Assembly: GCA_902364975.1 (NCBI GenBank)
Contig: CABJFQ010000004.1
Location: 62,001-126,000, forward strand
From: Coriobacteriaceae bacterium
GTDB lineage: Bacteria; Actinomycetota; Coriobacteriia; Coriobacteriales; Coriobacteriaceae
DNA length: 64,000 nucleotides
Reading direction: 5' to 3'
Shown here: positions 7,499 through 38,900 of the stretch, piece after piece
Layout: every line of letters begins with the position of its first letter
How positions within the stretch are numbered: the stretch's first letter is position 1
The notes under the pieces: generated by a model
Told to the model about the DNA's origin: nothing
Database searches by the model: none
Seen by the model: the letters and a program-made list of their open reading frames with translations, nothing else
Program-made: the position numbers and the translations under genes

Positions 7499-7547
7499 GA
7501 CGACGCACGCCGACGCACCGATGCCCAGACCGAAACGGGAGGACCCC

Positions 7548-8375: not shown

Positions 8376-8427
8376 GGTTCCGCCAGCGTGGCATGCGCCG
8401 CGTGCCTCGTCATCCGTTCGTGGCGCG

Positions 8428-8577: not shown

Positions 8578-8828
8578 GATGCCCTCCCTTAGCCTCGATT
8601 ACGCCATCTATGGCCGAGCAATCGCAGGTCACGTGCCATGGATTTGCCCTACGCCCAGCTTTCAGTTCTGTAAGGCGGCGGGAGCCTGTGCGAGGCCCCG
8701 AGTCCTGAGGCTGTTGCAATGAAAATGGGAATCAAGGGGCACGCATCAATCATATGGGTTCCTTTCGGGGGCGATGGCAAACGAAGCATCCATCATATAA
8801 TGGAGCGACGCAATCAGAGAGGTCACCC

Positions 8829-11387
8829 ATGGAATTTTACGCAAGCTGCCCCGAGGGCTTTGAGTCCGCACTCGCCGACGAGCTTAAACGGCTCGGGCTT
8901 TCGCATGTCCGCCGCCTGAAGGGCCGCGCTACGTTTGAGGGCGAGCTCGAAGAAGGCTACCGCGCCTGTCTGTGGTCGCGCCTGACCAGCCGCGTGTTTG
9001 TGGTGCTTGGGCGCTTTGAGGCACAGGACGCCGATGAGTTGTACGACGGCGTTTACGACATCGCCTGGGAGAACATCGTCCGCCCCGGCGCCACCATCGC
9101 CATCACCGCCCGCGGCGTGACCGAGCAGCTGCGCAACACGCGCTTCTCGGCTCTGCGCGCCAAGGACGCGCTGTGTGACCGCCTGGCCGAGGCCACGGGT
9201 CGCCGCGCCGACGTCAATGCCGCCGATCCCGACGTTCACCTGCTGCTTTCGCTGCGTCAGCGCCGCGCGAGCATAAGCCTGGACCTTTCGGGCGACCCGC
9301 TGTTCAAACGCCTGCCGCCCGCAGCGACCCGCGCCGGCGAGGGCGCGCACGTGCTGCGCCCCGACTACGCCGCCCTGGTGCTGGCGCAGGTCGGCTGGAC
9401 CGCACTGTGCGAGCGCGAGCTGACGGCCGATGATTACGAGGATGAAGCCCTTCCCACGCTAATCGATGCCTCGTGCGCCGGCGGCGGCCTGTTGCTGGAA
9501 GCCGTGAACATTCTGACCGACCGCGCCCCGGGCGCCACACGCGAGCGCCGGGGCTTTGAGGGCTGGCAGCTGCACGACGCCGCCCTGTGGGAGCAGCTGC
9601 TTGCCGAGGCGCGCGAGCGCGAAGCGGCAGCGCGCGAGCGCCAGGCGCGCATCGTGGCCGTAGACATCGACCCCGCCGCCCGCAAGACTGCCGAGCGCAT
9701 GGTCAAGTGCGCCGGCTACAAGCGTTTTGTCAACTTTTGTGCCGCCAAGCCCGCCACCGTGCTGGACCATGCGGGCGCCGTCGCCGGTGCCGCCGTGGTC
9801 GCAGACACCACCGAGACCCCGCTTTCGCTCATGCACGACGCCATGACGCTGGTCGGCGAGCTGCGCCGCGCGCCCGAGCTCGCTTCGGCACCGGTCGCCG
9901 CACTCACCCGCGATGGCCTTATGGCCCGTGCGCTCCATGCCGAGCCCGCGCGCTCCATCGCCGTCATGCCCAACAACGAAGAGGCGACTATTGAGGTTTG
10001 GCCCTCGCTCGATCATGCTGCCGCGGCGTTTGAAGCTGCGACCAGCGCAGATGCCGAGGAGCAGACCGCGGACGCCGAAGACGAAGCCGCCAACACCCCC
10101 ATGTCCGAACCTGCCGCCACGCTCGACTTGGGCGATGGCAAGCCGCTGCCCGTGCTCATCCCGGAGTCCGAGCAGTTCGCCAACCGCCTGCGCAAGAATG
10201 CCCGTCTGCGCCGCAAGTGGGCCAAGCGCGAGGGCGTGAGCTGCTACCGCGTCTATGATGCCGACCTGCCCGATTACTCCGCCGCCATCGATCTGTACGA
10301 GGGCTGCCCGCAGACGCCGGGTCGCTGGCTCGTCATCGCCGAGTACGCCGCACCCAAGACCATCGATCCTGCGCTGGCCCAGGCCCGCATGCTCGACATC
10401 TTGGCCATCGCGCCGCGCATCCTGGATGTTCCGGCCGAGCACGTGCACGCTAAGGCCCGCATGCGTTCGCGCGGCGGCTCGCAGTACGGCAAGCAGGGCG
10501 CCGGCAAGGGCGGCCCGGGCGAGCGCGCCAACATCGCGCGCCGTCGCCTCCCGCTCATCGAAGAGGGCGGACTCACCTTTGCCGTCAACTTTGACGACTA
10601 TTTGGATGTGGGCATCTTCCTGGATCATCGCGTCACGCGCAACCTGGTGCGCGAGCACGCCAAGCAGGCGCGCCGCTTCCTCAACCTGTTTGCCTACACC
10701 GGCACTGCCACCTGCTACGCGGCCGATGGCGGCGTCGAGGAGACCGTGACGGTCGACCTTTCCAACACCTATCTGGACTGGGCCGAGCGCAACATGCGCC
10801 AGAACGGCTTTGTTGGCCCGCAGCATCATTTTGTGCGCGACGACGTGCTCGCCTGGATTCGCGACCAGCGCCAGACGCGCAACCGCTGGGACCTGATCTT
10901 TGTCGACCCGCCCACGTTCTCGAACTCGTCCAAGATGGGCCGCCGTACCTGGGATGTCCAGCGCGACCATGTTGAGCTTTTGGCCGGCGTATCGCGCCTG
11001 CTCGCACAGGGCGGGCACGCCATCTTTAGCTGCAACCTGCGCGGCTTCCGCCCCGAGACGCGCAAGCTCGCGCGAGCGGGCGTCGTGCTGGAGGACATTA
11101 CGGCGCAGACCATCCCCGAGGATTTCGCGCGCAACCAGAAGGTGCACCATTGCTATATCGTGCGCCGCCTGCCCATCGAGGACGCCATGGCCGAAGTCGG
11201 CTTTAGCGCTGAGGAGATTGCCGAGCGAACCGAGGAGCTGCGCAACCCCGAGGCCCGTAAGCCTCGCGCAACAGCGCCCGCGCACGCGCAGGCCGGCAAC
11301 GGCAAGTCCAACTTTGCCGGCAAACCCTCCCCCGCCGGCAAACCTAAAAAGAAAAAGTTCTACGCCAGCAAGCCCAAGGACAAGTAA
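8829..11387 (+). CDS. rlmL: RlmKL-type 23S rRNA methyltransferase; N-terminal MTase domain apparently degenerate
   Basis: An 852-aa protein with the layout of RlmKL: a ferredoxin-like/THUMP RNA-binding region (1-160), a first Rossmann methyltransferase domain (about 165-430), and a C-terminal RlmK-like methyltransferase (about 540-760) with NLFAYTGTATCYAA and FVDPPTFSNSSKM. The C-terminal domain should make m7G2069. In the first domain the SAM motif reads IDASCAGGG instead of D-x-x-CGSG. The NPPYG catalytic motif of RlmL is absent: the expected position, around residues 315-330, reads VVADTTETP. An acidic, Ala/Glu-rich linker and a Lys-rich tail follow. The start is the ATG at 8829 after GAGAGGT; TATAAT at 8796-8801 may be the -10 box. 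Confidence 0.9.
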   Translation: MEFYASCPEGFESALADELKRLGLSHVRRLKGRATFEGELEEGYRACLWSRLTSRVFVVLGRFEAQDADELYDGVYDIAWENIVRPGATIAITARGVTEQLRNTRFSALRAKDALCDRLAEATGRRADVNAADPDVHLLLSLRQRRASISLDLSGDPLFKRLPPAATRAGEGAHVLRPDYAALVLAQVGWTALCERELTADDYEDEALPTLIDASCAGGGLLLEAVNILTDRAPGATRERRGFEGWQLHDAALWEQLLAEAREREAAARERQARIVAVDIDPAARKTAERMVKCAGYKRFVNFCAAKPATVLDHAGAVAGAAVVADTTETPLSLMHDAMTLVGELRRAPELASAPVAALTRDGLMARALHAEPARSIAVMPNNEEATIEVWPSLDHAAAAFEAATSADAEEQTADAEDEAANTPMSEPAATLDLGDGKPLPVLIPESEQFANRLRKNARLRRKWAKREGVSCYRVYDADLPDYSAAIDLYEGCPQTPGRWLVIAEYAAPKTIDPALAQARMLDILAIAPRILDVPAEHVHAKARMRSRGGSQYGKQGAGKGGPGERANIARRRLPLIEEGGLTFAVNFDDYLDVGIFLDHRVTRNLVREHAKQARRFLNLFAYTGTATCYAADGGVEETVTVDLSNTYLDWAERNMRQNGFVGPQHHFVRDDVLAWIRDQRQTRNRWDLIFVDPPTFSNSSKMGRRTWDVQRDHVELLAGVSRLLAQGGHAIFSCNLRGFRPETRKLARAGVVLEDITAQTIPEDFARNQKVHHCYIVRRLPIEDAMAEVGFSAEEIAERTEELRNPEARKPRATAPAHAQAGNGKSNFAGKPSPAGKPKKKKFYASKPKDK

Positions 11388-20074: not shown

Positions 20075-20077
20075 ACA

Positions 20078-20200
20078 CCCTCCCGGGCGGCGGGCACGAA
20101 GTTCATCGCGAGTTCCGCACGCAAAGAAGGCCACTTAATGTGGCCTTCGTCTTGCGCAGGACTGTAGAGCAGGGAACTTCGTGCCCGCCGCCCGGGAGGG
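20078..20200. repeat. 27-bp perfect inverted repeat enclosing the surface-operon terminator
   Basis: The arms at 20078-20104 and 20174-20200 are perfectly complementary over 27 bp; they begin CCCTCCCGGGCGGCGGGCAC and end with its reverse complement. Between them lies the 3'-end element with hairpin GAAGGCCAC-TTAAT-GTGGCCTTC (20126-20148). On the minus strand this whole 123-bp structure follows the stop codon of the LAATG-protein gene at 20222 and should terminate the surface operon. Confidence 0.85.
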
Positions 20201-20221
20201 CGTTGCGTTTAGAGGATGGAC

Positions 20222-20920
20222 CTAGTACTTATCCCTCCGGGACAAAAGCAGCGCGGCCATAAAAGCGATGATTGCAAGCGTCAGCAGCATCAAAAGCCAT
20301 GCGAGCGTGCTGTCGCCGGTTGCCGCCAGGCCAAACAGACCGGGGCTCTTACTGTCAGCAGGTTGTACGGGAATCTTCTCGCCATCGTCCTCGGCGGTGA
20401 TTTCCCAGCGGATGGTCTTGCTTGCGTCGGCAAGCTCATTGCCCACCGACGTCGGGACACTTAGTTGCAAATTGAGCACCGTGCTGCCATCGCTCGTAAA
20501 CGTTGCGACCTGCGTGGGATAGGCGAACACACTGCCCAGAGTTCCCGTCTGGAGCCAACCTGCAGACGCATCGCCCGCCGACGCCGTTAAGGTAATGGGC
20601 GACAGCAGGTGTGCCGTCTCGTGATCGACAACGGCCCGCACAAACACGCGTACCTGGGACTTTACACCAGTGGCACGAACCTCAATCTGCTGCTCGCGCA
20701 CATCGCCGGGCATTAGACCTTTAAAGGCGGGAAACAGATCGGGCTCCCCCGAGGAGCCCGTCGCCCCCGAGACCGTCAGCTGGCGCGCATTTCCGTCATA
20801 GGCAATCGCGGGAGTATCGGCAAACGCACGGGCAGGAACGGCGAGCGTGACCATGCAGAGAATAGCCGCGACCACGCAACGCAAGGAGCGCGCAACACCT
20901 TTGCGAATCGAGAACGCCAT
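20222..20920 (-). CDS. LAATG-anchored cell-wall surface protein, last gene of the SipW operon
   Basis: A 232-aa secreted protein. Signal peptide to about residue 32 (SLRCVVAAILCMVTLAVPARAFA). A beta-rich ectodomain of some 150 residues includes a MPGDVREQQIEVRATG segment, which resembles repeats seen in SipW-dependent fibre proteins. The C-terminal sorting signal is LAATGDS, then a hydrophobic helix and the charged tail SRRDKY. LAxTG is an actinobacterial variant of the sortase motif. The start is the ATG at 20920 after GGAGG; the stop of the preceding gene is two bases upstream. It probably anchors the fibre or adhesin encoded by the operon to peptidoglycan. No sortase gene is in the window. 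Confidence 0.82.
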   Translation of the reverse strand: MAFSIRKGVARSLRCVVAAILCMVTLAVPARAFADTPAIAYDGNARQLTVSGATGSSGEPDLFPAFKGLMPGDVREQQIEVRATGVKSQVRVFVRAVVDHETAHLLSPITLTASAGDASAGWLQTGTLGSVFAYPTQVATFTSDGSTVLNLQLSVPTSVGNELADASKTIRWEITAEDDGEKIPVQPADSKSPGLFGLAATGDSTLAWLLMLLTLAIIAFMAALLLSRRDKY

Positions 20921-20922
20921 AC

Positions 20923-21504
20923 TTACGCACCTCCATACGGCGGCACCAGCACGCCATCCTCGACCGAGCAACCCCATGCGTCGCGCACGGCCTCATCGGG
21001 CGTCGCCTGGACCGCCTGAGTGGAGATATCCACGACAAGATTGCGACCTTCGGTTGCCTTGAGCTCGGTAACCCTATTAATGAGCACGCCGGTTTCCGCG
21101 CCGGGAGCGACGGGCGACGTCCAGTAATAGAACCCGTCGCTCGCCTTAACCCAGTTATAAGCCGAGTTCGCGCTCGAGGCATCAGCCACGCTCCACGCAA
21201 TCTCGTAATCCGCCTCACCCTTCGGCTCCTCCTTCGGCTCATCCCACAGGCGTGCGCCATCCTGGTCCTGCCAGTAGATATCCACTGCAGCACGAATATA
21301 GGCGGGCGCAGTACCCGTGTTCTTCGCCTTGACATCGCTTTTCACTTTGCCGTTGAGCGTTTCCTGAACCGATGGCGTCACCGACCCGATGCCGAACTGG
21401 TTGACCAGCACGCCCGTAACCGAAAGCCAGGCCAGCGTGCCTGCCGTACCGGCCAGGAGGATAACCCCCACCAGCAAGGCGATGATGCGCTTGCGCTTGG
21501 ACAT
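20923..21504 (-). CDS. SipW-cognate (TasA/CalY-like) secreted protein, 193 aa
   Basis: The N-terminus MSKRKRIIALLVGVILLAGTAGTLAWLS followed by NQFGIGSV has the layout of SipW-class signal peptides: a basic start, long hydrophobic core, GT-A-W near the cleavage site, then a short F-x-G-S-V strand. The mature part includes VKAKNTGTAPAYIRAAVDIYW, a beta-sandwich-like stretch shared with the 215-aa protein encoded by this operon (VENVGAQPEYVRARLHM). The ATG follows AGGAGG and overlaps the context of the stop of the 1824-aa gene. It is probably a minor subunit or assembly/anchoring factor of an extracellular fibre. Confidence 0.8.
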   Translation of the reverse strand: MSKRKRIIALLVGVILLAGTAGTLAWLSVTGVLVNQFGIGSVTPSVQETLNGKVKSDVKAKNTGTAPAYIRAAVDIYWQDQDGARLWDEPKEEPKGEADYEIAWSVADASSANSAYNWVKASDGFYYWTSPVAPGAETGVLINRVTELKATEGRNLVVDISTQAVQATPDEAVRDAWGCSVEDGVLVPPYGGA

Positions 21505-21505
21505 G

Positions 21506-24500
21506 CTAATCCTCCTTCTTTGCTACGATGCCGTTGCTCCAAACGTTATGGGCACGATTGCTGCCGTCGATCCATTTGTCGTTCACACGCGTGTTCGTGC
21601 AGGTGAACGTGGCATCGTTCGCGCTCGATGCAGCGGAGATAGTCGCCTGCGCCTTATCGCCCGGCTGCTTGCCAGGGACGCCGATTTGGTTGCTGTAGCG
21701 CCATGCCCACGCTGAGTCCTCCTCGACGGTGTAGATACCCGCCGGGACCGCAAGCTCGATAGCGCCGGAGTACCAGGCGGAACCGTCCTTCAGCTGCGCA
21801 TCCGATGACACCGTTACCTCAACCGTGCGCTCCTCCAAGGCGTTGCCGTCCATGCCGGCCCGGGAAACCTTGAAGCGGAACGTCTTGCCCTTCGCCCAGC
21901 TATCCTGGGTTTGCTTGACGATCTTGAGCGTATGCGTAGCGGCGAAATCGAACACCGCATTGCCATCGCTCTGAGTGCCGTCGCCCGTGAGCTTGTAGTC
22001 CAAACGATTCGTCAGCTCAAACGAGCCCTCGCCTGAACCCGAACTGTAAAGCGAGACATACTTCCCGTTGACAGGCGCAGGAGTCTGGCCAGGAAGACCA
22101 TAGCCCACGCGGTCAACGTGCACCGTCAATTGCGTGCCCATGAAGGGCTTTGCAAAGCAAGCCTTGAACGGCGCCTTATCGCTCTTGTCATCTATCGTGT
22201 TCGCGGCATTGGGATCAAGCAACCACTTGAGCTGCCCGGTCACATTCTTAGGGCTCGCATCGTCCGATGTGTCGTTAGCGACGACCTTATACGTCACCGG
22301 ATACAAATCCATGTTGGCTGTAACCGGTTTACCCTTGAAGTCGCTCCACGCCACAGCTTTGTCGCCATTAACCCACTGCCACTCCAAGAACAACTCCTTC
22401 AAGCTGCTATCCGCTCGCTCGCCCAGGAATGCGACGATTGCGGAGTAGGCTTCGGGATCGTAGGCCACTTCCTTTGGCTCCATGACGGGTTCACCCTTGT
22501 CGTCATAGAACGGGTTGCCGTTCTCGTCCATCTTGGGCACCTTAACTGTCTGAACAAAGCCGGCATTGCCATCCTGGCCACGCAGAACACTCGTATCGTT
22601 CGGGTCTACCGTAGCGGTGTAGATGACGTTGCCTTCGGTGTCGTGATAGCGCACTTTAAGCGGCGTCTTCTTGTACACCGCAGTGTAGGTCACGCTCTCA
22701 AAGGGCTCGCTGCCCTCGAGGGGATACTTCTCATCGTCAGTCATCAGGGTGTACTGCCCGTCATTGACATAATCGCGCGACCAGCCGACAAAGTCGTACT
22801 TGGTGCCGTCAGTGCCCTCAACCTCCTCGGCGGCCTTGACCTCAAGAGAAATCTGGTCGCCGGAATCAGTGCGGCCGAGGCTACGGACAAGATCGGGATT
22901 CGCAAGTTCAGAGTCAATGTTCGATTGAACGGTAACCAGGCTGGGACGGTAGACCGGGTACAGCTCCATGGGGGCCTTGACCACGGTAGAAGCACTCACC
23001 ATACGGATGCCCTCTGACCAAGCGACATAGCCCTTGCCAGGTGCCGGCTCGGCTTCCGTCCAGCCCACGAAGACGTTGAACTCGCCTGTATCCGCATCGA
23101 TAGTGCTGACGTCATAAGTAGGCTTCGGGATGCCGCCATTAAGGTTGCCGAGCATATCGTCTTGCTGAGCAACTTTGCCGTCCACATCCGTGGCATTGAG
23201 GTGGTACACAACCGCCAACGGCGAATAGTACGCCACGAATGTATAGGCTCCGCCAGGTTCCACCGGATAAGAGCAAGTACCATGCTCCACATCGTAGGGA
23301 AGCGTCTTGATCTCGCCGTTCGGAAGCTCGATCTCAACCTTCTGCAACTTATACAGCTCACCGCCTGCTTTATAAACCGGCGTCGTAACGTCAGGGGTCA
23401 CCGTTGCCGTAGCAGGATTGGTGTCCGCGTTGATAACGGGAGCGATGTTGTAGCTAGGCACATTGACCTTGTCCGTACCCTCAAAACCTGCGCGATGCAG
23501 GTTGGTGGTGTAGCTGACGTCGTACTTTGCGTAGACGGGATAGGCATCCTGCCACTGGGTGACCTTGGACTCGTCGGTCGCCAGATACGGCTCTGCCTTA
23601 TCCGGATCACTCGTCACATAGGGGTCGCCGGCGACGTCGTAGATATACTTCCAGACGTCGGAATCCTTCTGAACCTCGGCGGTTGAAATCCAGCCCAGGA
23701 ACTTATAGCCCGGCACCGCCATCTCCGCATCGGTCGGAGAGGCTTCGAGTGTCAGGTTGGGATTGACGTCACCCTCCTTTCCGTGCTCGGGCGTGTTGTC
23801 TACCGTCTGTTCGGTATGGATAAACGGATATTTATAGGTGTAGGTGCTATCGGAGTCCAGCAGCAACGGAGCCTCATAACGTCGCGTGACGCTCTTAACC
23901 GAGACATCGTCCTTGCCATAAAAGCTGACGCTTGTCGTCACCATGGCACGCATGTAATACTCCGAATCGATGCCAATCTCGCTCTGAACGGGGTTGCCCA
24001 CGCAAGTCCAGCACCCGCCTTGGCGCTCGAGGGTCCAGAAATTTAAATGGTATCGCTTGCTCGCCGGCCTAAAGTAAAACTTCAGCGCTCCTGCGACCCA
24101 CTCGTCATCCAGTGTGCCCGAACCCGGGAAATCCGTATCGGCAATGACATTTTTCCGGGTATCCACACCTGTATCGTTTTTGACCGTATGCGAATACGCT
24201 TTCAAAGGCGCAACGATGAGCGTCTCTGCCCCAAAGCGCCCCTCATTGCATTCGTCCTTATAGTTTTCCTTCAGTCCGTGATAGACGTGCTCGGAACCCC
24301 AGTGCACGATATTCTCTCGCACGTAGCTCGAACCGACCTGCTCGTTAAACGAAGTTTGGTACCCGTTCCACACAGAGCAGAGGAGTCTAGAATCCTTATA
24401 GGCATCGTTCGTCATCGACTTGACGTAATAGTCCACGCGGTACTCAAAGCGGGCGATGTAGGTATGCGGCACGGTTAAATCGACATCTGCGGGGAGCGTA

Positions 24501-26980
24501 TAGCTGGGATCGCGGCTTACGCGCACCTCGAGCGGAGCATCCTCGGTTCCCTTGTTTTCGTACCAGCCCAGGAAGCAATAGCCGTCGGGCAGCTTGCCGC
24601 CATCGGACAGGGGCGTACCGTCCGTGTTGCACACCTGTACCGTGTAGACGCTAGTGCCGCCCCCGGCAGTCTTGACGTCGACTTTGGTTTTGCCCACGCC
24701 AACGCGCTGGCTCACATCATTGAGCGCGTCCTGCTCATTACCCTCGAACACAGTTATGATGTTCGACACGTAGTCGCTGTACACGGGATAGAAGTCGGCT
24801 GGACGGACAACAGTGATCTCGCTACCCGCAGGATAAAAAGCTCCCTGATTTTTAAGCTCGGCTAACTTATCCGAAGTGATGGCGGCATAGGCGCCGTTCA
24901 TACCTTCCTCGCTGCTAGGCTGCGTGGTCCAGCCGATAAATGTCGCGGTAGCGGAAAGCCCCTCGCGGTCTTCGGGAGCCGCGGGCGTCAAACCCACGCC
25001 GTAGCGATACCAATCAGTGGACTTGTCGTGCGCGGCACCGGTTTTCCAATCAAGCGTCTTGCCCTTAACGTTATAGAACAGCACCTGCGCCTCGTATGAA
25101 GCGATAAAGAGGTCGTTACCCTTGAAGCCGAATTTTTCATCGACGCCGCTTCCGTTGTTGGCGGTGTAGGTCGAAGCCTTATCGTGGTCCGTGTTCTCCT
25201 CGACGCGCTTGTCAGCAGCGACAGCAGCAGCATCGGTCTTGCCGTTAAACCAGGCGTTATCGGCATCGATGCGGTTCACATTGACTCCGGACTCGTGGAA
25301 CCAGCCCATAAAGCGGTAGCCGCCGTTCGCCTCGCTCAGCCCCGCGGGCTTTGCGGAGGTTTCCTGCCTGAACGTTACCGACGTATCGCCCTGGGCCAAG
25401 CCCTGGGCCGTTCCCGCCAGCACGGCGCTCACGGCAAAGGCGTACGGATCCGAGGTCTTCTGATCAATACCGAGTTTGGTCGCCTCGATTGTCGCGGTGC
25501 CCGCACCGGGAAAATCGATCGTCGCCTTAACGCTCTGGCCATGCACGGGGATATTCAGTCTGTAGTCCATCGCCCACTCGTTGGCATGCGAACCGCCCAG
25601 GGCCTCATCGTTAGCGGTCGAGCGCATGGTGCCGGCACAGAAGTCGTAGTCGTGCTCCTCCCACAGCTCGCGCGTGGCGTAGCGCCCGTCGTCCCACGGG
25701 CCGTAGCCGTCGCCCTTGGTGGTACCGTCGCCGCCAAAAGAGGGGATCTTCTTCTTAGCCGCGGTACCCTGGCTGCTGCCGTTTAGGCTCACGCTCGGCT
25801 TAAAGTAGCACTCGGTGACCGTGGCATCATCCTTGTTGGCACGCGCGGCAATGCCGCCCAGGTTCACATCGTTTTGAATGATGGGGATCACGGCGATGGG
25901 ATTGTACTGACGCGAGCTCAAGTCACCCGCAAAATGGCTTCGAACGAGCTCGTTGCCCTTTTCGGTTAGAATACGACCCGCCAAGCCACCCGTCCACGCG
26001 CGCGTCACGGCGACGACGCCCACGTACGACGCGGCATAGCTGTAGCACTGCGCCGTCGAGAAGCAGTCGATAATCTTGGCCTCGCCCGCCATGCAGCCCA
26101 CAAAACCCGAGGCGTACACGTTGTTGCCGCCCAGGGCGCCAATGGCCACGTCGTACTTATTGGTGACGTCGGTCATGCCCTTCTCGGCAATCGAGCCGTC
26201 GTCCTTACGCGTCGGCGTCACGCGGCAGTACTCGATAGTCGATTTCTTAACGTAGCCGGCAAACGCCGCCATATACAGACCCTCACCGCCGAGCGCCTGC
26301 ACGCCCGAGGTCGTATTGTTGACGGCACGGCCGCCACGGACCTCGCAGTTGTAGAGGGTGCAGCCGTCGAGCTCGCCGGCGATGAGACCGCCCTCAAAGC
26401 CTGCGTTGGTAATGAGGTTGAGAGCATTGTTGGCGCAGGTCACGTGCAGCGTGCTCTCCATGACCATAACGTTTTCGAAGCGCGTATTGACGGCCTTGCC
26501 CACGATAATGCCACCGCGGAAGTCCGCCCACACGTTGGCGTCCTTGACCAAGAAGTTTTTGATGGTGGCACCGTTGGTCTCGGCAAAAAATCCCGTATCG
26601 CGCTCGGGGTCAAAAGCGTCTTTATCGTAGTTCAGGCCCTCAACGGTGTGGTTTTGACCATCGAACACGCCCTTAAACGGATGCTCCTTGTTGCCAAACG
26701 ACAGATGCTTAACGGTGTTTGCAACGATGTCTTTCATGTCGTCGCTGTCGAGCTCAATGTCGTTATCGAGATAAACGTGCCAGCCGGACGTATCGCGCTC
26801 GCGCGACAGCGCCACACACGACAAAAAGTCAGCCTCGTTTTTGATGTGGAATTCGGTTTTGGCCTCGGGCGCAGTCTCGGCATGTACCGCCATCGGCAGC
26901 GCCATAACGCAGCAAAGGGCAATCGCCGCGACGGCAACTAGCCTGCTAAGCACGCCCCGGTTCATGTTCTTGATCTTCAT
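21506..26980 (-). CDS. giant secreted InlB-repeat protein, 1824 aa
   Basis: A Sec signal peptide (about 1-34, cleavage after AVHA) is followed by a region of roughly 350 residues with GLUG/right-handed-beta-helix character (FKGVFDGQNHTVEGLNY, GGLAGRI). Then come six or more Listeria-Bacteroides (InlB B/Flg_new) repeats recognisable by their GW cores (YRFMGWF, ATFIGWT, YCFLGWY, YKFLGWI, NVFVGWT, YDFVGWS) and following YPVY strands. A final SpaA/Cna-B-like domain (TLKIVKQTQDSWAKGKTF...YTVEEDS) ends the protein. There is no LPXTG signal and no terminal membrane helix, so attachment may depend on the SipW-cognate partners or the LAATG protein. It is three bases downstream of the 215-aa gene. Probably an adhesin or fibre tip. 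Confidence 0.88.
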   Translation of the reverse strand: MKIKNMNRGVLSRLVAVAAIALCCVMALPMAVHAETAPEAKTEFHIKNEADFLSCVALSRERDTSGWHVYLDNDIELDSDDMKDIVANTVKHLSFGNKEHPFKGVFDGQNHTVEGLNYDKDAFDPERDTGFFAETNGATIKNFLVKDANVWADFRGGIIVGKAVNTRFENVMVMESTLHVTCANNALNLITNAGFEGGLIAGELDGCTLYNCEVRGGRAVNNTTSGVQALGGEGLYMAAFAGYVKKSTIEYCRVTPTRKDDGSIAEKGMTDVTNKYDVAIGALGGNNVYASGFVGCMAGEAKIIDCFSTAQCYSYAASYVGVVAVTRAWTGGLAGRILTEKGNELVRSHFAGDLSSRQYNPIAVIPIIQNDVNLGGIAARANKDDATVTECYFKPSVSLNGSSQGTAAKKKIPSFGGDGTTKGDGYGPWDDGRYATRELWEEHDYDFCAGTMRSTANDEALGGSHANEWAMDYRLNIPVHGQSVKATIDFPGAGTATIEATKLGIDQKTSDPYAFAVSAVLAGTAQGLAQGDTSVTFRQETSAKPAGLSEANGGYRFMGWFHESGVNVNRIDADNAWFNGKTDAAAVAADKRVEENTDHDKASTYTANNGSGVDEKFGFKGNDLFIASYEAQVLFYNVKGKTLDWKTGAAHDKSTDWYRYGVGLTPAAPEDREGLSATATFIGWTTQPSSEEGMNGAYAAITSDKLAELKNQGAFYPAGSEITVVRPADFYPVYSDYVSNIITVFEGNEQDALNDVSQRVGVGKTKVDVKTAGGGTSVYTVQVCNTDGTPLSDGGKLPDGYCFLGWYENKGTEDAPLEVRVSRDPSYTLPADVDLTVPHTYIARFEYRVDYYVKSMTNDAYKDSRLLCSVWNGYQTSFNEQVGSSYVRENIVHWGSEHVYHGLKENYKDECNEGRFGAETLIVAPLKAYSHTVKNDTGVDTRKNVIADTDFPGSGTLDDEWVAGALKFYFRPASKRYHLNFWTLERQGGCWTCVGNPVQSEIGIDSEYYMRAMVTTSVSFYGKDDVSVKSVTRRYEAPLLLDSDSTYTYKYPFIHTEQTVDNTPEHGKEGDVNPNLTLEASPTDAEMAVPGYKFLGWISTAEVQKDSDVWKYIYDVAGDPYVTSDPDKAEPYLATDESKVTQWQDAYPVYAKYDVSYTTNLHRAGFEGTDKVNVPSYNIAPVINADTNPATATVTPDVTTPVYKAGGELYKLQKVEIELPNGEIKTLPYDVEHGTCSYPVEPGGAYTFVAYYSPLAVVYHLNATDVDGKVAQQDDMLGNLNGGIPKPTYDVSTIDADTGEFNVFVGWTEAEPAPGKGYVAWSEGIRMVSASTVVKAPMELYPVYRPSLVTVQSNIDSELANPDLVRSLGRTDSGDQISLEVKAAEEVEGTDGTKYDFVGWSRDYVNDGQYTLMTDDEKYPLEGSEPFESVTYTAVYKKTPLKVRYHDTEGNVIYTATVDPNDTSVLRGQDGNAGFVQTVKVPKMDENGNPFYDDKGEPVMEPKEVAYDPEAYSAIVAFLGERADSSLKELFLEWQWVNGDKAVAWSDFKGKPVTANMDLYPVTYKVVANDTSDDASPKNVTGQLKWLLDPNAANTIDDKSDKAPFKACFAKPFMGTQLTVHVDRVGYGLPGQTPAPVNGKYVSLYSSGSGEGSFELTNRLDYKLTGDGTQSDGNAVFDFAATHTLKIVKQTQDSWAKGKTFRFKVSRAGMDGNALEERTVEVTVSSDAQLKDGSAWYSGAIELAVPAGIYTVEEDSAWAWRYSNQIGVPGKQPGDKAQATISAASSANDATFTCTNTRVNDKWIDGSNRAHNVWSNGIVAKKED

Positions 26981-26983
26981 AGG

Positions 26984-27631
26984 CTAGTTCGCCTCCGGCC
27001 AACCCGCGACGTCGAGAACGTCGAGGACGGTATCGCTTTCCTGCTGGTTTTTGGCCTGCACGGCCTGCACATCGATATCGAGCCTGAATGAGCCGCCGCG
27101 CGCGGCATCGTGGTAGTCGCCCACAAAGCGCAGCGAGTCCATGAGGCTTTCCGTCATGGCGCCGGGGTCGAGCATGCCGCCACGTCCGGCCAAGCCGCGG
27201 TAGTAGTACCACCCATCGCCGCCATCGATCCACGGGGATCCCTCGCCCGCGTTCACATGAAACGCAACGCTGCCCGAAGCATCCGCGCTCGAACCGTCGG
27301 GCGCCACCGACGTCATGTGCAGACGAGCGCGAACGTACTCAGGCTGCGCGCCGACGTTCTCCACGCGCACAATGCGGCTGATGTCAGAGCCCCCGGCCTT
27401 GGTGTCGGGATAGTCCCCGTGCTCGTTGGGCTCAAACGGAATCTCCTCGCCATGCTCGTTGAGGGTGTATTCGCAGACTCGTACCTTCACGCTGCCAAAC
27501 GAGAGAACGTTGTTCACCGGAACCATATCAACGGTAAAAGCCAGCGTGCCGCACAGGCACGCCAGGGCCAACAGCGCCATCGCGGTAAGCGCCAAGGTGC
27601 GTTTCTGATTGTCAGAAAGATTGTTGAGCAT
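26984..27631 (-). CDS. SipW-cognate (TasA/CalY-like) secreted protein, 215 aa
   Basis: The N-terminus LSDNQKRTLALTAMALLALACLCGTLAFTVDMVPVNNVLSFGSV matches the SipW-class layout (hydrophobic core, GTLAF, then a LSFGSV strand). A motif IVRVENVGAQPEYVRARLHM parallels the 193-aa protein of this operon, implying a shared fold. The C-terminus ends WPEAN. I use the ATG at 27631; a TTG four codons earlier is possible and neither has a strong ribosome-binding site. It lies after the major-subunit gene across a hairpin at 27661-27709. Probably a minor fibre component. Confidence 0.78.
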   Translation of the reverse strand: MLNNLSDNQKRTLALTAMALLALACLCGTLAFTVDMVPVNNVLSFGSVKVRVCEYTLNEHGEEIPFEPNEHGDYPDTKAGGSDISRIVRVENVGAQPEYVRARLHMTSVAPDGSSADASGSVAFHVNAGEGSPWIDGGDGWYYYRGLAGRGGMLDPGAMTESLMDSLRFVGDYHDAARGGSFRLDIDVQAVQAKNQQESDTVLDVLDVAGWPEAN

Positions 27632-27660
27632 TACGTTCGCCAATCGTCGATAAGGGGGGA

Positions 27661-27709
27661 CCGAGATCCCGGCCCGAAAATGGGGATGGGGAGCGGGCCG
27701 GGATCTCGG
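27661..27709 (-). other. 15-bp perfect intercistronic hairpin inside the SipW operon
   Basis: CCGAGATCCCGGCCC at 27661-27675 and GGGCCGGGATCTCGG at 27695-27709. On the minus strand it sits just after the stop of the putative major-subunit gene and has no T-run behind it (a C-run follows). This placement fits a processing or stability hairpin that would keep the major-subunit mRNA in excess over the four distal genes. Confidence 0.65.
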
Positions 27710-27720
27710 TGGAGGGGGGA

Positions 27721-28458
27721 TTAAGCCTGAGTCTTAGCCCATTCCTTGGCCTGCGCGATGGCGTTCTCGGCATCGCCCTGGTCAGCGCCGAAGATGTAGC
27801 AGGAGACTGTCATAGTGGGCTTGGCGGGACTCTGAACAACATCCGTGTTGTTCATGGCAGCCGGGATATGCACGGTGCTGAACAGCTCACCGGTGTAAGC
27901 AGCCTTTGCCTCGGTAGTCTCAGTCTTTGGAGTAGGAGCAAGCTTGGCAGGGGTGTCGGTGTTACCAGCGGTATACATGAACAGACCGCTCACGTACTGG
28001 TTAGGGTTACCGTTGTTCTTAGCACCCACGGTGGTATCCGCAACCGGCTTCCAGTTATCGTTAAGCGTGAAGTACGGGGTCTTAGCAAGAGCGTCAGTGG
28101 CATCTTTCTTCACAATGGCGTTCTTCACGTAGATGAACACATAGGACTCATCAGAGTCCTTGCCGATACCAACGTTGGGGTTCTTGGCAATATTGGTGTC
28201 GGGAATCATCTTGGAATCTTTCTTCCACAGGGTCTCGAACAGATAACCATCCACTGAGGGGTCCGTGGGCTTGTCGCCGGGCTTGTTCGGATGATCAGGG
28301 TCGGGCTTCACTTCGGGCTTGTCGATGCTGCCAACCGTGAACTCGTTCGTCTCGGAGTCGGTTGCCGACAGCCATGCATAGGTGCCAACGCCGGCGGCCA
28401 GCACCAACAGCAGCAGGGCGGCAATGATGCCGTAGCGCTTTTTCTTCTTGTTTTCCAT
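27721..28458 (-). CDS. TasA/CalY-like SipW-dependent secreted protein, putative major fibre subunit
   Basis: A 245-aa protein whose N-terminus, MENKKKKRYGIIAALLLLVL then AAGVGTYAWLSATDSETNEFTVGSI, is a textbook SipW-class signal (lysine-rich start, hydrophobic core, GTYAWLS, D-x-E-T-N-x-F-T-V-G). The mature part has a proline-rich linker (residues about 48-70) and a beta-rich domain (SYVFIYVKNAIVKKDA, TMTVSCYIFGADQGD). I start at the ATG at 28458 after AAGGAAGAG. It directly follows the signal peptidase gene, like tasA after sipW in Bacillus. Expected to be exported, cleaved by the adjacent SipW and assembled outside the cell. Confidence 0.85.
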   Translation of the reverse strand: MENKKKKRYGIIAALLLLVLAAGVGTYAWLSATDSETNEFTVGSIDKPEVKPDPDHPNKPGDKPTDPSVDGYLFETLWKKDSKMIPDTNIAKNPNVGIGKDSDESYVFIYVKNAIVKKDATDALAKTPYFTLNDNWKPVADTTVGAKNNGNPNQYVSGLFMYTAGNTDTPAKLAPTPKTETTEAKAAYTGELFSTVHIPAAMNNTDVVQSPAKPTMTVSCYIFGADQGDAENAIAQAKEWAKTQA

Positions 28459-28528
28459 CGTTCTCTTCCTTTCGAGAATCGTTTTCCCCGCCAACGGCCC
28501 CTACCGCCGCCGACGCTTTTCCCTGCCG

Positions 28529-29086
28529 CTATGAACGCCGCTCCCTCGCATGCACGCGGGTATGCTTGCCCGCAGGCTCGTCGGGAACCATCCGATCGAG
28601 CACTATCGACGCCGCGACTAGCAGCGCCAGAACGGCCACCACAACAAGCAAACCGGGCATCGTCGTGCAATATGCGTCAACGAAGCCCAGGTAAGGGACA
28701 CAAAAAGAAACGACACCGATCACGCGTGAAAAAGGCGTCTGCTCGGCGTCGTGCATGATGCTTCCATCTGCATTTTTGTTTGCGATTCCCTGCGTGCCGA
28801 TCATCTGCGCCGCAGGGTCGATCTCGTACACCTGGTGCGTCACCACGGCGCCGTCCGATCGGTAAAAGGTTGCATTGTCGCCCACGGCAATATCCGTTGG
28901 ATCAACTTGGTGAACAAACACCATGGAGCCAACGGGTAGCTCGGGCTCCATAGAACCCGAAAGCACTGTATAGGGCGTGTATCCAAATGCACGAGGGACA
29001 AAAGAAACGACGGCAAGAGCCATGACGAGCGCAATCGCCAAGCTACTCAAAAGTGCAATAAATCGTTTGAGTCTACGCGCCGTCAA
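28529..29086 (-). CDS. sipW: SipW-type signal peptidase I (Ser-His, ER-like)
   Basis: A 185-aa membrane protease with an N-terminal membrane segment (about 9-30), the active-site SGSMEPEL with Ser45, a VHQVDPTDIAVGDNATFY region, and VVTHQV with His84 where ordinary bacterial type I peptidases have lysine. A second membrane helix lies at about 144-165. Ser-His signal peptidases of this kind process TasA/CalY-like substrates with SipW-class signals, exactly the proteins encoded downstream. The start codon is a TTG at 29086; no better in-frame ATG is seen. It is the first gene of a six-gene minus-strand operon; a candidate promoter lies at 29213-29241. Confidence 0.9.
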   Translation of the reverse strand: MTARRLKRFIALLSSLAIALVMALAVVSFVPRAFGYTPYTVLSGSMEPELPVGSMVFVHQVDPTDIAVGDNATFYRSDGAVVTHQVYEIDPAAQMIGTQGIANKNADGSIMHDAEQTPFSRVIGVVSFCVPYLGFVDAYCTTMPGLLVVVAVLALLVAASIVLDRMVPDEPAGKHTRVHARERRS

Positions 29087-29212
29087 AGTGATAATTCATC
29101 CCCATCGAGGCCTTATTCGACCCATCCAAAGGTCAGCAAGTTTCAACAGGAACCGCAAGGCGATTGAAAAGTGAGTCCGAAATAAGCCAATTTGGAATCT
29201 TTTCGTAATAAA

Positions 29213-29241
29213 AACATAGCGATATGCTACAAATTTTTCAA
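29213..29241 (-). promoter_or_regulatory. candidate sigma-A promoter of the SipW operon
   Basis: On the minus strand TTGAAA (29241-29236), a 17-bp spacer, and TATGTT (29218-29213), about 120 bp upstream of the sipW start. The surrounding 29100-29460 is clearly more AT-rich than the rest of the window. No gene is supported in 29087-29836; besides this promoter it contains a 9-C tract (29385-29393), array B and the flavodoxin terminator. Confidence 0.5.
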
Positions 29242-29384
29242 TGTTTTGTCGCCAAATGCTACCTATTTTGGCGTAAGTGGTCATTTATCCCCAAATTAGT
29301 CTGTTTTATCCAATATCTGTGACTGACCACCTACGCAACTTCCCCATAGAGGGATCGATTTTTTGCGAAAGTAAAATAATGGTA

Positions 29385-29393
29385 CCCCCCCCC
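29385..29393. repeat. nine-base poly-C tract upstream of the SipW operon
   Basis: Nine consecutive cytosines in otherwise AT-rich intergenic DNA, about 145 bp upstream of the predicted sipW -35 box. Homopolymers of this length are prone to slipped-strand change. A 10-C tract is similarly placed upstream of the giant adhesin at 47822-47831. Confidence 0.8.
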
Positions 29394-29489
29394 ACATTAA
29401 AACAAACTGCTGGAAGTGCCATTTATTTCCGACCCCCTTTTACCGGAGTTTTATGACGGCCCCATGTAGTTCGCAGCCCATAATCCTCT

Positions 29490-34367: not shown

Positions 34368-35474
34368 ATGATAGTACCGCCACCCCAAAAGAAGCGTAAA
34401 CAACTCGTCATTTCTAACGGGATTCAGTTTTCAGAGGGGCATACGCGCACACCCAGCCAGTGGCGGGTCGACCACTTGGTATACTTACACGACATTCTCG
34501 CAAGAAGAGCAAGACGAGCAACTGTGGGCATCGCCCTTTCCGCGGCACTTGTCGCGGGAATCGCCCCCGCAACGGCGATCGCGGCAGAAACCAGTTCCCC
34601 CACCGGTGCAGTTGCCTTGCAGACGGAAGACGCGGCCGCCGCAAAGGAAAAAGCGTATGCAGCCATGCAGGAAGCGCTCAAAAACCTCGAAGCCGCGAAA
34701 GACGCCGCAAGTCCCGAGAAACTTGCGGAAATCGATGATGACATTGCCAGTTTTCAAGAGATCCACGACATGGTGGTGACGGAAGCCGCCAAACGGAGGG
34801 AACCCCTTCCCGCCATGCAAGCGAACGTCGATGCAGCCCAAGCCAAATACGATGAGGCCCACAACCGGACAAGCGGCCTTCAGGCAGAATTAGATAAGGT
34901 ACTCAAGGAGCTCGGCGACGAGGCGCCCAGCACAGCCATTGAGGAGCATATTAAGCAGTTGCGCAGTGAGATCATGGCGGCAGAAAGGCGAGAAGAATCT
35001 TGTGAAGATGATCTTCACCGCTACCAACGCCGGCTCGAAAGCCAGGAAAAACAGGTTCAGTATTTCGAAAGTGAGGCAAAGGAAGCTAAAGCCCACATCG
35101 ACGAGGACATAGCCAAGCGAAATGCGCTCCTTAGCGATTTGGAAAAGGCGCAAGCGGCCTATGACGACGCCTGCAAGGCATACGAAGAGGCAAAGGCCGC
35201 GGCAGACAAGGCCACCTCGCCCGAGATAGCGAAACCCGCCGAGACGACAAAACCCTCCAGCTCAGCGCAGCCGGCCGAAACGGCCCAGCCCGCCAGCTCG
35301 CCCGCGACCGGCAAATACGCTCCATCGAGCTCCACCAAGCAAGCAAATACGACCGCCGGCAAGCTCGCAAACACGGGCGACACAGCACCGAGCGCAATCG
35401 CACTCGCAGGAATCGCCGCCGCAGGACTCGGAATAACCACCGCAGCCACACGCCGCCTCAAGAACTCAAAATAG
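34368..35474 (+). CDS. LANTG-anchored coiled-coil surface protein
   Basis: A secreted, cell-wall-anchored protein of up to 368 aa. The signal peptide core is TVGIALSAALVAGIAPATAIA (about residues 53-73). A long charged coiled-coil region follows (about 85-285, rich in Glu, Lys and Ala, e.g. KNLEAAKDAASPEKL, HIKQLRSEIMAAERREES), then a Pro/Ser/Thr-rich spacer and the sorting signal LANTGDT with a hydrophobic helix and TRRLKNSK tail. The N-terminus is uncertain: the first 36 residues of the longest frame are not signal-like, so a TTG at 34476 or GTG at 34524 may be the true start. TATACT at 34480-34485 could be a -10 box. It ends at a strong terminator. Confidence 0.75.
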   Translation: MIVPPPQKKRKQLVISNGIQFSEGHTRTPSQWRVDHLVYLHDILARRARRATVGIALSAALVAGIAPATAIAAETSSPTGAVALQTEDAAAAKEKAYAAMQEALKNLEAAKDAASPEKLAEIDDDIASFQEIHDMVVTEAAKRREPLPAMQANVDAAQAKYDEAHNRTSGLQAELDKVLKELGDEAPSTAIEEHIKQLRSEIMAAERREESCEDDLHRYQRRLESQEKQVQYFESEAKEAKAHIDEDIAKRNALLSDLEKAQAAYDDACKAYEEAKAAADKATSPEIAKPAETTKPSSSAQPAETAQPASSPATGKYAPSSSTKQANTTAGKLANTGDTAPSAIALAGIAAAGLGITTAATRRLKNSK

Positions 35475-35788: not shown

Positions 35789-35895
35789 GTGCGCTCGATG
35801 GATTCGGATGCCCGACAGAGGCTCCTTATGGCTGCTTCCTTCCGGACCTGACCAGATTCGGAACATGTCGTCATCCGAACCCATCGAACGCGCTA
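35789..35895 (-). ncRNA. ffs: signal recognition particle RNA, small bacterial (4.5S) type
   Basis: On the minus strand GGTCAGGTCCGGAAGGAAGC followed by AGCCATAAGGAGCCT is the conserved SRP RNA domain IV, with its symmetric and asymmetric internal loops and GGAAG apex. The ends GCGCGTTCGATGGGTTCGGATG and CATCCGAATCCATCGAGCGC pair to form the long helix, giving about 103-107 nt, the small hairpin form without an Alu domain. Just after it comes a T-rich stretch (GGGCTTTCTTTTT) that would end transcription. It binds Ffh to target membrane and secreted proteins. Frames of 80-140 codons overlapping this RNA are not genes. Confidence 0.95.
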
Positions 35896-35981: not shown

Positions 35982-38900
35982 CTAGCGGCGCCTACGGTAC
36001 AGGACCGCGCCGCCCGCTGCGGTCAGCGCGCCGATGCCGGCCATGGCCGCGAGCGCCTCGACCGGCAGGCTGCGGTCGCCGGTGTCGGGCATGCCGCCCT
36101 TGGAGCCGTCGCCGCTGGAGCCGCTGCCGGAGCCGTTATCTGAACCGCCGCCCGAGCCGCCGCCCGGCGTGCCGGGGTTCTCGGGGGTGCCGGGCTCCTC
36201 GGCGTAGCTGTTGGTGAAGACTGGCGGCACGTTGGCGTCGCCCTCGTAGGAGACCTTCGCCGACAGATAGCCCGTCTTGGTGCCGTCTGCCGCCTCGTCG
36301 CTCACCGTGACGACGATCTTGTGCGCCGCCGTGTCGTAGGTCACGTGCGCCTGACCGTCGTCGACCTCGCTCACCGTGAAGGTGTAGGTGCCGGCCCGCT
36401 TGAACGTCAGCGCATCGAACGCGACGCTGCCGTCGGCGGCATTCTTGGCGGTCGACATGACCTTGCCGTCCCGGCCCTTGAGCTCAAAGCTAAACTGGCC
36501 AGCCTTGAGCTCGGCGCCCTCGATCACCTTGGCGGCGCCCAGCTTGAGGGTGACGGGTGCGGCCTCGTAGCCGTTGGTGAAGGTCACCGAGGTGTCGTTC
36601 GCGGCATTGCCCTCGGCATCCATGAGCTCGTGCTTGACGGCGAGCGTGCCGTTGCCGGCATCGGTGACCGTCGTGCGCACTCGGTACGTCGCCCTGTCGT
36701 ATGTCACGCCGCCCGCCGTGCCGGCGACTTCGCGCAGCTCGTAGCTGTGCGCGCCGGGCGCGGTGTAGGTGACGGGGCCGAGCGCGACCGTTCCGTCGGC
36801 GGCGTTCTTGCCCGTCGCCGCGACGCTCTCGCTGCCGTCGGCGGCAATCTCGATCAGCTGGAACTCGAACTCGCCCTCGGCCAGGTCACGGCCCTTAAGC
36901 TTCTTGTTCACCTTGATCTGGTCGGTGACGGAGCTCGGCGTCGGGTTCACGCCGTAGGTGTTGGTGAACTCGAACGCACCCCTGCCCTCGGGCGTGCCCT
37001 CTGCGGGCAGGACCTCCGCGGCGAGCGTGCCCGCATTGGTGTCCTCGACCACCTTGACCGTGAAGATCCTGCTCGCCGTCGCGTCATTGACCACGCCGTC
37101 GACCGAACCGGACTCGCTCACCCGGTAGGCAAACGTCTTGGTGCGCAGGCCGTCACCGTCGATCTCGACGCCATCGAGATCGCTCGGCTGCTTAAACGTG
37201 ACATGGCCCAGCTCGACGTTGCCGGCGGCGTCGTTGGTCGCCTCGGTCACCGTCTTGCCGGAGGCGTCGACCAGTGCGGGCGCGCCGTCCAGCGGCTCAA
37301 TCTTAAAGGCGTACCTGCCCGCGATGTCAGCCTGCGTGAGGCCGAGTCCGGCCTGGCCGAGCGCCAGCGTCTTGGCACCCGCGATGTCGACCGTCGCCTC
37401 GCCGGCGCTATAGCCGTTCACAAACGACAGCGTGCCGTCGGAGCCCTCGGGGTAGACCACGGCCACATCCAGCCCGCCCTTACCGTTATCGGTCACCTTG
37501 ACCGTAATGCCGAAGCTCGACACGGCCGCCGTCACGCCCGCGGGCAGCCGGTCCGTACCGTCCTCGGAAACGGTATAGGGAATGACCCAGGAGCCGTCGG
37601 CGGCCCTGGTGGCGATGCCGTCCGCCACCATCTGCTCGAGAGCGTCGGTGGTGTAGGAGATGGGCGAGAACGAAAGTCCCACGGCCTCGCCGTCGCCGGA
37701 GGCCCGGTTGGTCGCGGTCGCGACCACATTGCCCTGGGCATCGCGGACGGAGAACGAGAACTCGCCCGCCGCCGCGGCGCGGCCCGTCAGCGTCTTGGTG
37801 GCGTTGATGGCCACGTTGCCCTCGCCGCCGAGCTTGGTCTCGGTGACGGTGAAGCTGTAGGTCTTGTCCGCGTCGGCGTCGGTAAACTTCACGTCGCCCT
37901 CCGCGGTCCCGCCGATGAGGTCGACCAGGTCGGCCGCACCGTCATCGGCCGCGGAAACGGTATAGGCGTCCCCGTCGGTCTTGAGGCCGAGCTTGGCGGC
38001 CGTCTCGGCGTCCGCGGTCACGGTGAAGGCGAACTGCCCCGCCTCCATGGCGCGGCCGGAGAGCGTCTTGGACAGGCGCACTCCCGCGCGGGCCGAGTAG
38101 TCGAGCTCGGTCGTGTAGGTGTTGACGAAGTCGCCGCCGCTCGCCTGCGCGATCGCGGGCGTCGTGGCCGTGAGGTTGCCGGAGCCGTCGTCGGCCACGG
38201 TCACCGTCATCGTGGCGACGTGGCCGTCGTAGGCCACGCCGGCGATGGCGGAGCCGTCATCGGGCCTGACCTCGCGCACCGTGTAGGTGAAGGTCTTGGC
38301 GCGCACGCGCTTGCCGCCGACCTCGGCGAACCCGGCGTCCTTGATGTCATTGAGCGTGTAGCGGATGGGGCCGAAGTCGAAGGCGACCCTATCGCCCGCC
38401 TTGGTGCCGGCGGCCGTCACGCTGACGGTCTTGGAGCCGTCGGCAGATCCCTCGGGCATGGGAGCGCCGCCCTCGCCCGTGAGCGTGAACTGGAAGCTAT
38501 CGCCCTCCGCCCAGTCGCGGCCCTCGAGCGTCTTGGTGAAGAGCCCCACGGTGGAGACGTCCCTGCCCTCGGTGGCCGTACCGTACGTGTTGGTGAACGC
38601 CGCGGTCGCGCCGTCCTCGGTCACGGCGCCCTCGACCTTGGAGCCGTCAGCCCCGTTGACCGTGGTCGCATATCCCTCGGCGGCGTCCTCGGTCACGGTG
38701 TAGCGCGCGCCCACGGGCAGGCCGGCGATGGTCTTCTCCCCGCCGTCCCTGAGCGTGAAGGTCGCCTTGCCGTCCGCGAACGTCACGGCGTGCTCGCCCT
38801 TGCCGAAGGTGCCGGAGACGGGCTCGCCGTCCCCGTCGGTCAGCGCGACCGCAAAGCCGAACTCGCGCTGGCTGTCGCCGCCGACGACCGTCTTCTTGAC

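Follow-up and report, generated by a model that had tools for sequence, protein, structure and literature searches.

The window analysed here is a 64,000-nucleotide stretch of a Coriobacteriaceae bacterium genome (contig CABJFQ010000004.1, positions 62,001 to 126,000), and its minus strand carries an operon of six genes: sipW, T, A, a gene for a giant putative adhesin, B and a gene for a protein with an LAATG motif. All six open reading frames (ORFs) are present at 20222-29086 in the order given by a first-pass annotation of this DNA, which had read the operon as a wall-anchored SipW-type fibre with an adhesin. That reading is supported overall, as neither of the two outcomes it had named against itself, folds unrelated to TasA/CalY or a gene order conserved in no relative, was found. 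The operon probably makes a SipW-dependent donor-strand pilus anchored by sortase, with an adhesin that can only donate a strand and a wall anchor that can only accept one. The features are as follows.

28529-29086, minus strand: sipW, 185 amino acids (aa), TTG start, endoplasmic reticulum/archaeal-type Ser-His signal peptidase (TIGR02228 and PF10502 above cut-off; S45 and H84 invariant)
27721-28458, minus strand: T, TasA/CalY-like subunit, 245 aa from the ATG at 28458 (TIGR04088, marginal PF12389, T alignment)
28327..28374, minus strand: predicted mature N-terminal donor segment of T, WLSATDSETNEFTVGS, cut after GTYA, read from the sequence; corresponds to the TasA donor region (28-38)
26984-27631, minus strand: A, SipW-type subunit, beta sandwich, possible adaptor, 215 aa (homologues, AlphaFold2 model)
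27491..27538, minus strand: N-terminal donor-like segment of A, FTVDMVPVNNVLSFGS, read from the sequence; off the strict pattern at +1
21506-26980, minus strand: giant exported putative adhesin, 1824 aa (signal peptide, repeats, Cna-B-like domain, tail)
21590..21925, minus strand: Cna-B/prealbumin-like domain of the giant protein, residues 1686-1797 (weak SpaA_4 match, E 0.74; conserved Lys, Glu and Asn)
21527..21574, minus strand: C-terminal donor-like tail of the giant protein, WIDGSNRAHNVWSNGI, residues 1803-1818 (tail alignment, pattern test)
20923-21504, minus strand: B, BsaA-like SipW-type subunit, 193 aa (TIGR04090 E 1.4e-5, below cut-off; matched by the A and T profiles)
21382..21429, minus strand: predicted mature N-terminal donor segment of B, WLSVTGVLVNQFGIGS, read from the sequence; fits the pattern
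20222-20920, minus strand: LAATG-anchored putative base, TasA-like fold, ordinary signal peptide, 232 aa from a coupled ATG
20315..20329, minus strand: LAATG sorting motif, followed by a hydrophobic stretch and RRDKY (T201 and D203 invariant, G202 nearly so)
20075..20203, no strand: inverted repeat of 30 nucleotides, 97% identical, 69 nucleotides between the arms, with a smaller inner hairpin, at the 3' end of the operon

The intergenic gaps from sipW to the LAATG gene are 70, 89, 3, 1 and 2 nucleotides, and the last three of these make the last four genes look translationally coupled. The 30-nucleotide inverted repeat exceeds a usual terminator in length.

SipW scores 78.2 bits against TIGR02228 (cut-off 51.85) and also passes PF10502, and its Ser45 and His84 are invariant across nine aligned SipW proteins, which bears out the earlier assignment to the Ser-His type with His84, in which Ser-His replaces the Ser-Lys dyad of the S26 fold. 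Against NF046067, the Bacillus SipW equivalog model, it reaches 69.4 bits, below the cut-off of 190. T passes the SipW substrate model TIGR04088 (28.6 bits, cut-off 19) and, marginally, PF12389 (camelysin, TasA/CalY; 22.6 bits, cut-off 22.5). TIGR04088 is passed by T only, with B at 13.6 bits and A unmatched. B resembles the BsaA model TIGR04090 at 25 bits (E 1.4e-5) and A reaches 17.1 bits (E 0.0036), both under the family cut-off of 60, and three of the 57 homologues of A (P0054-P0056) bear PF12389. The motif that had been noted in the three substrates is present in T, A and B, which all show GT-x-A ahead of W or F and then an F/L-x-x-G-S strand; in B and A, GTLA precedes the W or F. Profile matches, such as that of the A profile to B at 3e-12, suggest that the three proteins are related to one another, and T and B are assigned, from their sequences, as putative TasA/BsaA-like subunits. 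Eight aligned T proteins share W29, N38, F40 and G43 without exception, at positions 0, 9, 11 and 14 past the cut. The AlphaFold2 model of A is a beta sandwich with a mean predicted local distance difference test (pLDDT) score of 75.8, in which residues 24-45 fall below 50 and the N-terminal segment is disordered. TasA is not among the matches listed for this model against the PDB, and profile searches of PDB sequences with T and the putative base return no TasA. A may be a specialised adaptor adjoining the tip.

The giant protein has an ordinary Sec-type signal peptide by reading of the sequence, and its head, judged by eye, is probably a beta-helix. Seven F-x-[GE]-W cores lie between residues 557 and 1531. 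The earlier label of InlB repeats is fair only with the qualifier degenerate: such repeats do recur, and PF09479 (InlB B-repeat) gives 18.5 bits, below its cut-off of 27. In the Cna-B-like domain, K5, E70 and N112 of the aligned piece are invariant in eight lineages, as is usual for an isopeptide-forming domain. These lineages are the C. aerofaciens-like Collinsella loci, counted as one, and loci L017, L018, L072, L076, L077, L079 and L083; L017 and L018 belong to the same genus as Collinsella genome G001, and the other five come from the class, L077 being Slackia piriformis YIT 12062. When the C-termini are read, no sorting-signal-like end is seen on T, A, B or the giant protein. Past its Cna-B-like domain, the giant protein ends in WIDGSNRAHNVWSNGIVAKKED.

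This end, which the first-pass annotation had missed, may be the first evidence of how the adhesin is attached. The tail WIDGSNRAHNVWSNG follows the same pattern as the mature N-termini of the subunits, WLSATDSETNEFTVG, with an aromatic residue, N at +9 and F/W at +11. The tails of the other seven lineages are WLDGQGDAHNVF, YLDGEDRAKNVF, WLDGSARKINEF, WIDGDERRTNVF, WFDDDARAKNVF, WFSDDARIENEF and HLDGEDRAKNVF, and those of L018 and L083 are nearly identical. As in T, the tails have W/Y/H at 0, N at 9 and F/W at 11, and four of the eight have G at 14; the Asn is invariant across the eight lineages. The pattern [WYFH][LIVMFYA]x7Nx[FWLIVM] was compared with the last 45 residues of 466 control C-termini and fits 8/8 tails, 19/23 substrate segments and 3/466 controls, one of which belongs to a 587-aa tip encoded in a different SipW locus, L086. 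The four substrates that do not fit are all A-type and deviate at +1, and the T and B segments fit in 19 of 19 cases. With other spacings (3-6 and 8-12), at most one of the eight tails and one of the 23 substrates fit, along with 2 to 10 of the 466 controls. The 23 hand-listed substrates exclude A of L017, L018, L077 and L083 and T of L083, the N-termini of which are unanchored, and include seven closely related ones from Collinsella. Among 51 distinct segments anchored by the cleavage site alone, an automatic set that includes non-substrates, 26 have N at +9 and 21 have F at +11. The position matrix made from this set ranked tails of giant proteins as the top three of 479, with several others, including that of the window, scoring low; it was dropped as noisy because of the non-substrates and replaced by one from the hand-listed segments. 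In leave-one-lineage-out matrices, zero to two of the 466 controls score as high as the tail for seven lineages.

The C-terminus of the LAATG protein consists of LAATG, a hydrophobic stretch and the basic RRDKY, with a helix at 204-231, which is the layout of a sorting signal; across 20 relatives T201 and D203 never vary and G202 hardly does. The anchor proposed earlier stands in its motif layout and conservation, and falls short in the score against the LPXTG model TIGR01167 (12.3 bits, cut-off 15.9). The structural model of this protein has a TasA-like fold and matches TasA above unrelated folds, and its mature chain leaves no room for the N-terminal donor strand of TasA. The proposal that it forms the base gains support from this combination of a TasA-like fold with the lack of a donor strand, and the best reading of the model is an acceptor-only, sortase-anchored base. 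The fold comparison comes out positive for the LAATG protein and without TasA among the matches listed for A. Among 120 clusters listed of relatives of the base, three exceed a thousand member sequences each.

The six protein profiles were run on 34 loci. The order sipW-T-A-giant-B-LAATG recurs in the same orientation in all 12 complete distinct loci with this tip type (the window, L001, L019, L020, L021, L017, L018, L072, L076, L077, L079 and L083), and the arrangement is therefore more than chance. The order is kept both inside and outside Collinsella, as in Slackia piriformis, which answers the gene-order check that had been proposed. Two copies of one further locus (L022 and L004) hold all six genes with sipW cut by the contig end, and L002 and L003 begin inside the operon and hold the remaining four genes. 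The nearest DNA relatives of the giant gene are five Collinsella loci, the best in C. aerofaciens strain BSD2780061688st1_F5 (88%), which makes Collinsella the most likely genus of the window.

Among 43 genomes of the genus, the giant protein occurs in eight and the LAATG protein in the same eight. In 197 genomes drawn from the class, SipW (E <=1e-8) is found in 93, the C-terminus of the tip in 11 and the base in 21. Strong tip matches (E <=3e-34) and strong base matches (E <=5e-31) fall in the same nine genomes, each of which also has SipW. The remaining two tip matches are a fragment beside a base fragment in G021, which has no SipW, and a match to the Cna-B part only in G127. At least four of the 12 weaker base matches (G134, G140, G142 and G162) directly adjoin a sipW match. 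Tip and base fragments of G021, a genome of the same genus, lie at 6715-7276 of L151 with the Cna-B part of the tip and no SipW match, and look like the remnant of a decayed operon. The tip search of the phylum matches 9 of 396 genomes, five of them strongly and all five already within the class set; G318, G419 and G256 match in the Cna-B part only, without the tail, and G021 is the fragment. The C-terminus of the Slackia giant protein finds only itself in 5.8 billion proteins and nothing in plasmids. The base profile also matches genes in nine further SipW loci (L142, at 2e-3, L145, L070, L086, L096, L149, L071, L074 and L075) and none in SipW loci L146, L065, L088, L093, L084, L061 and L147.

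The best support for the donor-tail idea comes from what appears, by sequence, to be an independent lineage, a SipW locus of Acetoanaerobium noterae (Clostridia) reached through SipW searches of plasmids. Immediately upstream of SipW is an exported protein of 863 aa that has a VWA domain and bears the tail WFYDDDEEKNYFHVGG. Two PF12389 proteins (45.3 and 24.8 bits) and an LPRTG protein of 294 aa, the latter a weak match to the base profile (2e-3), are encoded downstream. This tail is the sole exact pattern fit among the 18 ORFs of at least 150 aa in the locus, and with a matrix built from Coriobacteriia substrates alone it takes the top rank among the 18 (shuffle p 0.001). The tail scores 13.4 with the 12-position matrix, where a true substrate scores 12.9, and 14.8 with the 15-position matrix, where the true substrate scores 17.9. 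Searches of plasmids with T and the base of Acetoanaerobium return only themselves.

Including Acetoanaerobium, eleven further SipW loci with 132 ORFs were scanned with the pattern, ten of them also with the matrix. Two other fitting ORFs, of 319 aa in L143 and 201 aa in L148, are apparently not tips. Both E. raffinosus and E. wangshanyuanii possess a large exported protein together with a base-like protein anchored to the wall, which in L146 was recognised only by eye. In the plasmid loci of E. faecium and L. paracasei, sipW-tasA is present and neither a tip nor a base is seen; a large glycoside hydrolase gene lies ahead of sipW-tasA in these plasmids (L143, 7664-9637; L144, 5837-9934). A SipW-profile search of viral contigs returns two loci, L147 and L148, the former with sipW and a TasA-like gene and with no tip or base within the sequenced part examined. 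The 628-aa protein of L070 matches the tip profile weakly (2e-3). Sortase-like genes lie directly upstream of sipW in the divergent Coriobacteriia loci L070 (10238-11059) and L096 (8809-9636, below the Pfam cut-off), a placement like that reported for srtB in C. perfringens. In L149 (G186), a 695-aa protein encoded at 7401-9488 has a SipW-type N-terminus of its own and C-terminal DMSxCxxMxxMF-like repeats, which we take to be DUF285/BspA-like, as if the adhesin were built into the subunit rather than attached by a tail.

From the observed gene content, gene order, motifs and single fold match, we infer the assembly, polarity and adhesive role as follows. SipW would cut the signal peptides off T, A and B and thereby free an N-terminal donor strand on each, as is known for TasA, and each freed strand would fill the groove of the next subunit. 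Because the giant protein lacks both an N-terminal donor and a wall anchor and carries a C-terminal copy of the donor strand, it could only donate; it would act as a starter, as TapA does, and remain at the distal end. The shaft and adaptors would consist of T, B and, perhaps, A. The LAATG protein, by its TasA-like fold, lack of a donor strand and sorting signal, could serve only as an acceptor; on receiving the last donor strand it would halt growth, and it would be fixed to the wall by sortase. Growth would proceed tip first with addition at the membrane, and cleavage by SipW would arm each subunit.

Several observations weigh against this assembly. The pattern was written after the tails had been seen, and the eight homologous tails amount to approximately one observation; the chance to be set against them is therefore that of one C-terminus fitting, about 1% from the controls. 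The Collinsella tail of the window is weak by its leave-one-lineage-out matrix, with 28/466 controls scoring as high (permutation p 0.008). The base model is of moderate quality (pLDDT 67), with Foldseek template modelling scores of 0.26-0.38 to TasA chains. In Acetoanaerobium, the runner-up ORF scores 11.5 against 13.4 for the tail with 12 positions (8.8 against 14.8 with 15). Among the eleven further loci, the pattern falls on a tip only in Acetoanaerobium and L086 (G206), the latter with a matrix p of 0.14. The large proteins of E. raffinosus and E. wangshanyuanii end off the pattern in WDYKKNDLG and WDYKTNLFG, those of L070 (G203) and L096 (G137) end in AVNHISAG and AVNEVR and align to their own subunits only with gaps, and L149 misses the tail pattern and has no such tip. 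Additionally, a C-terminal donor strand would exit the groove on the side opposite to an N-terminal one. The donor-tail mechanism may be exact for one operon family and looser elsewhere. The complete pilus, with a giant tip bearing a C-terminal mimic tail, a TasA-like shaft, an acceptor-only base and tip-first growth, common to Coriobacteriia and some Clostridia, is accordingly proposed tentatively, at somewhat under even chances.

The variable or absent tails of other SipW loci would also suit a SipW-dependent TasA/BsaA-like matrix fibre that the giant protein decorates, or whose matrix it decorates, as a separate secreted adhesin, the tail resemblance being due to chance or to another role such as the folding of the last domain. 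BsaA of C. perfringens likewise polymerises without BsaB and BsaC (PMC7395162). The exact spacing in 8/8 lineages and in Acetoanaerobium, the invariant Asn of the tail and the lack of a sorting signal on the giant protein argue against such an adhesin, which we consider unlikely. It is less probable still, and in our estimate improbable, that the giant protein nucleates the fibre at the cell-proximal end in the manner of TapA, with the fibre reversed and the LAATG protein a free-standing wall protein or end cap. TapA acts only as a donor where the fibre begins and is considered to help to anchor TasA to the wall; yet it is the TasA-like LAATG protein, not the giant protein, that bears a sorting signal, and the Acetoanaerobium tip carries VWA, a domain usual in distal adhesins.

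The Cna-B-like domain of the giant protein and the sorting signal in the last gene, together with sortases in 3/3 genomes checked, could also point to a classical sortase-polymerised pilus alongside unrelated SipW exports. Such a pilus has a sorting signal on its major subunit and a sortase in its cluster. Here the signal is on only one of six proteins, three subunits bear the SipW/TasA motif instead, and no sortase is found among the six operon and five flanking genes; no TLxTC-like ORF of at least 150 aa occurs in the 64-kb window. BsaA, moreover, polymerises without the neighbouring SrtB. This explanation is therefore very improbable, and the SipW-dependent, sortase-anchored donor-strand pilus remains the preferred reading.

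The five flanking genes encode a nitroreductase, a sulfatase-domain protein, a flavodoxin and two ABC transporters. Ahead of the operon, at 29213-29241, is a promoter-like site, and such sites occur at chance level (4 observed, 4.4 expected). Elsewhere in the window, a second giant surface protein of 3977 aa with an MPDTG sorting signal is encoded on the minus strand at 35982-47915; it has approximately 15 FctA/Spy0128-like isopeptide domains (three scanned pieces) and two SpaA stretches, and a small signal recognition particle RNA gene lies past its stop at 35792-35887. A 368-aa protein encoded on the plus strand at 34368-35474 has an LANTG sorting-signal-like C-terminus and matches helical families below cut-off only. 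With the LAATG, MPDTG and LANTG proteins, the number of likely wall-anchored proteins in the window comes to at least three.

Fibres of the TasA/CalY/BsaA kind are known as biofilm matrix, and Collinsella is a common human gut genus. A literature search pairing SipW and Collinsella found nothing within a coverage that mostly leaves out subscription journals, and the titles and abstract openings of the papers listed showed no TasA-type fibre that is anchored to the wall and bears a donor-tailed adhesin. The locus offers one candidate protein each for wall fixation and adhesion, plus one 16-residue peptide, and its layout suggests how TasA-type fibres could be capped and attached. Since Collinsella is common and three clusters of base relatives each exceed a thousand members, the structure may be a common gut surface organelle.

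Among known systems, sortase-assembled Gram-positive pili have a base anchored to the wall by a sorting signal and VWA or Cna-B domains in the tip or shaft; the shaft subunits here lack a sorting signal, and polymerisation would be by non-covalent strand exchange. Chaperone-usher (type I) pili have a donor-strand shaft, a distal adhesin and dedicated terminal subunits. Their tip adhesin accepts a strand, whereas the one here would donate, and secretion and polarity differ. The tapA-sipW-tasA operon of B. subtilis resembles the present one in its SipW-type peptidase, TasA-like subunits with an N-terminal donor segment and donor-only accessory protein, and the base protein here has a TasA-like fold. 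According to PMC9674648 and PMC10151520, the N-terminal strand of TasA completes the next subunit and extends only after its own subunit has received one, and the N-terminus of TapA resembles the TasA strand and can start filaments. TapA is small and donates its N-terminus, whereas here the donor-like strand is C-terminal on a giant adhesin and a sortase-anchored base is added. The TasA/CalY and CapP system of B. cereus likewise has two TasA-like subunits, an accessory protein and sortase-independent polymerisation; the available portion of its description gives CapP a predicted helical N-domain and a repeat C-domain and mentions neither a giant adhesin nor a sortase anchor. The sipW-bsaABCRSD locus of C. 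perfringens also combines SipW with several secreted proteins, and A and B resemble BsaA below cut-off; it has two regulators, where the present operon has none, and the parts of the report available describe a sortase gene nearby and no giant adhesin or LPXTG base. There, BsaA forms very stable polymers, SipW is needed for its extracellular location and SrtB is dispensable for polymerisation (PMC7395162). A possible reading of a sortase that lies beside sipW and is yet dispensable for polymerisation is that it anchors the fibre rather than polymerising it, and the present locus may be seen as a variation on the SipW/TasA fibre theme of TasA, CalY and BsaA.

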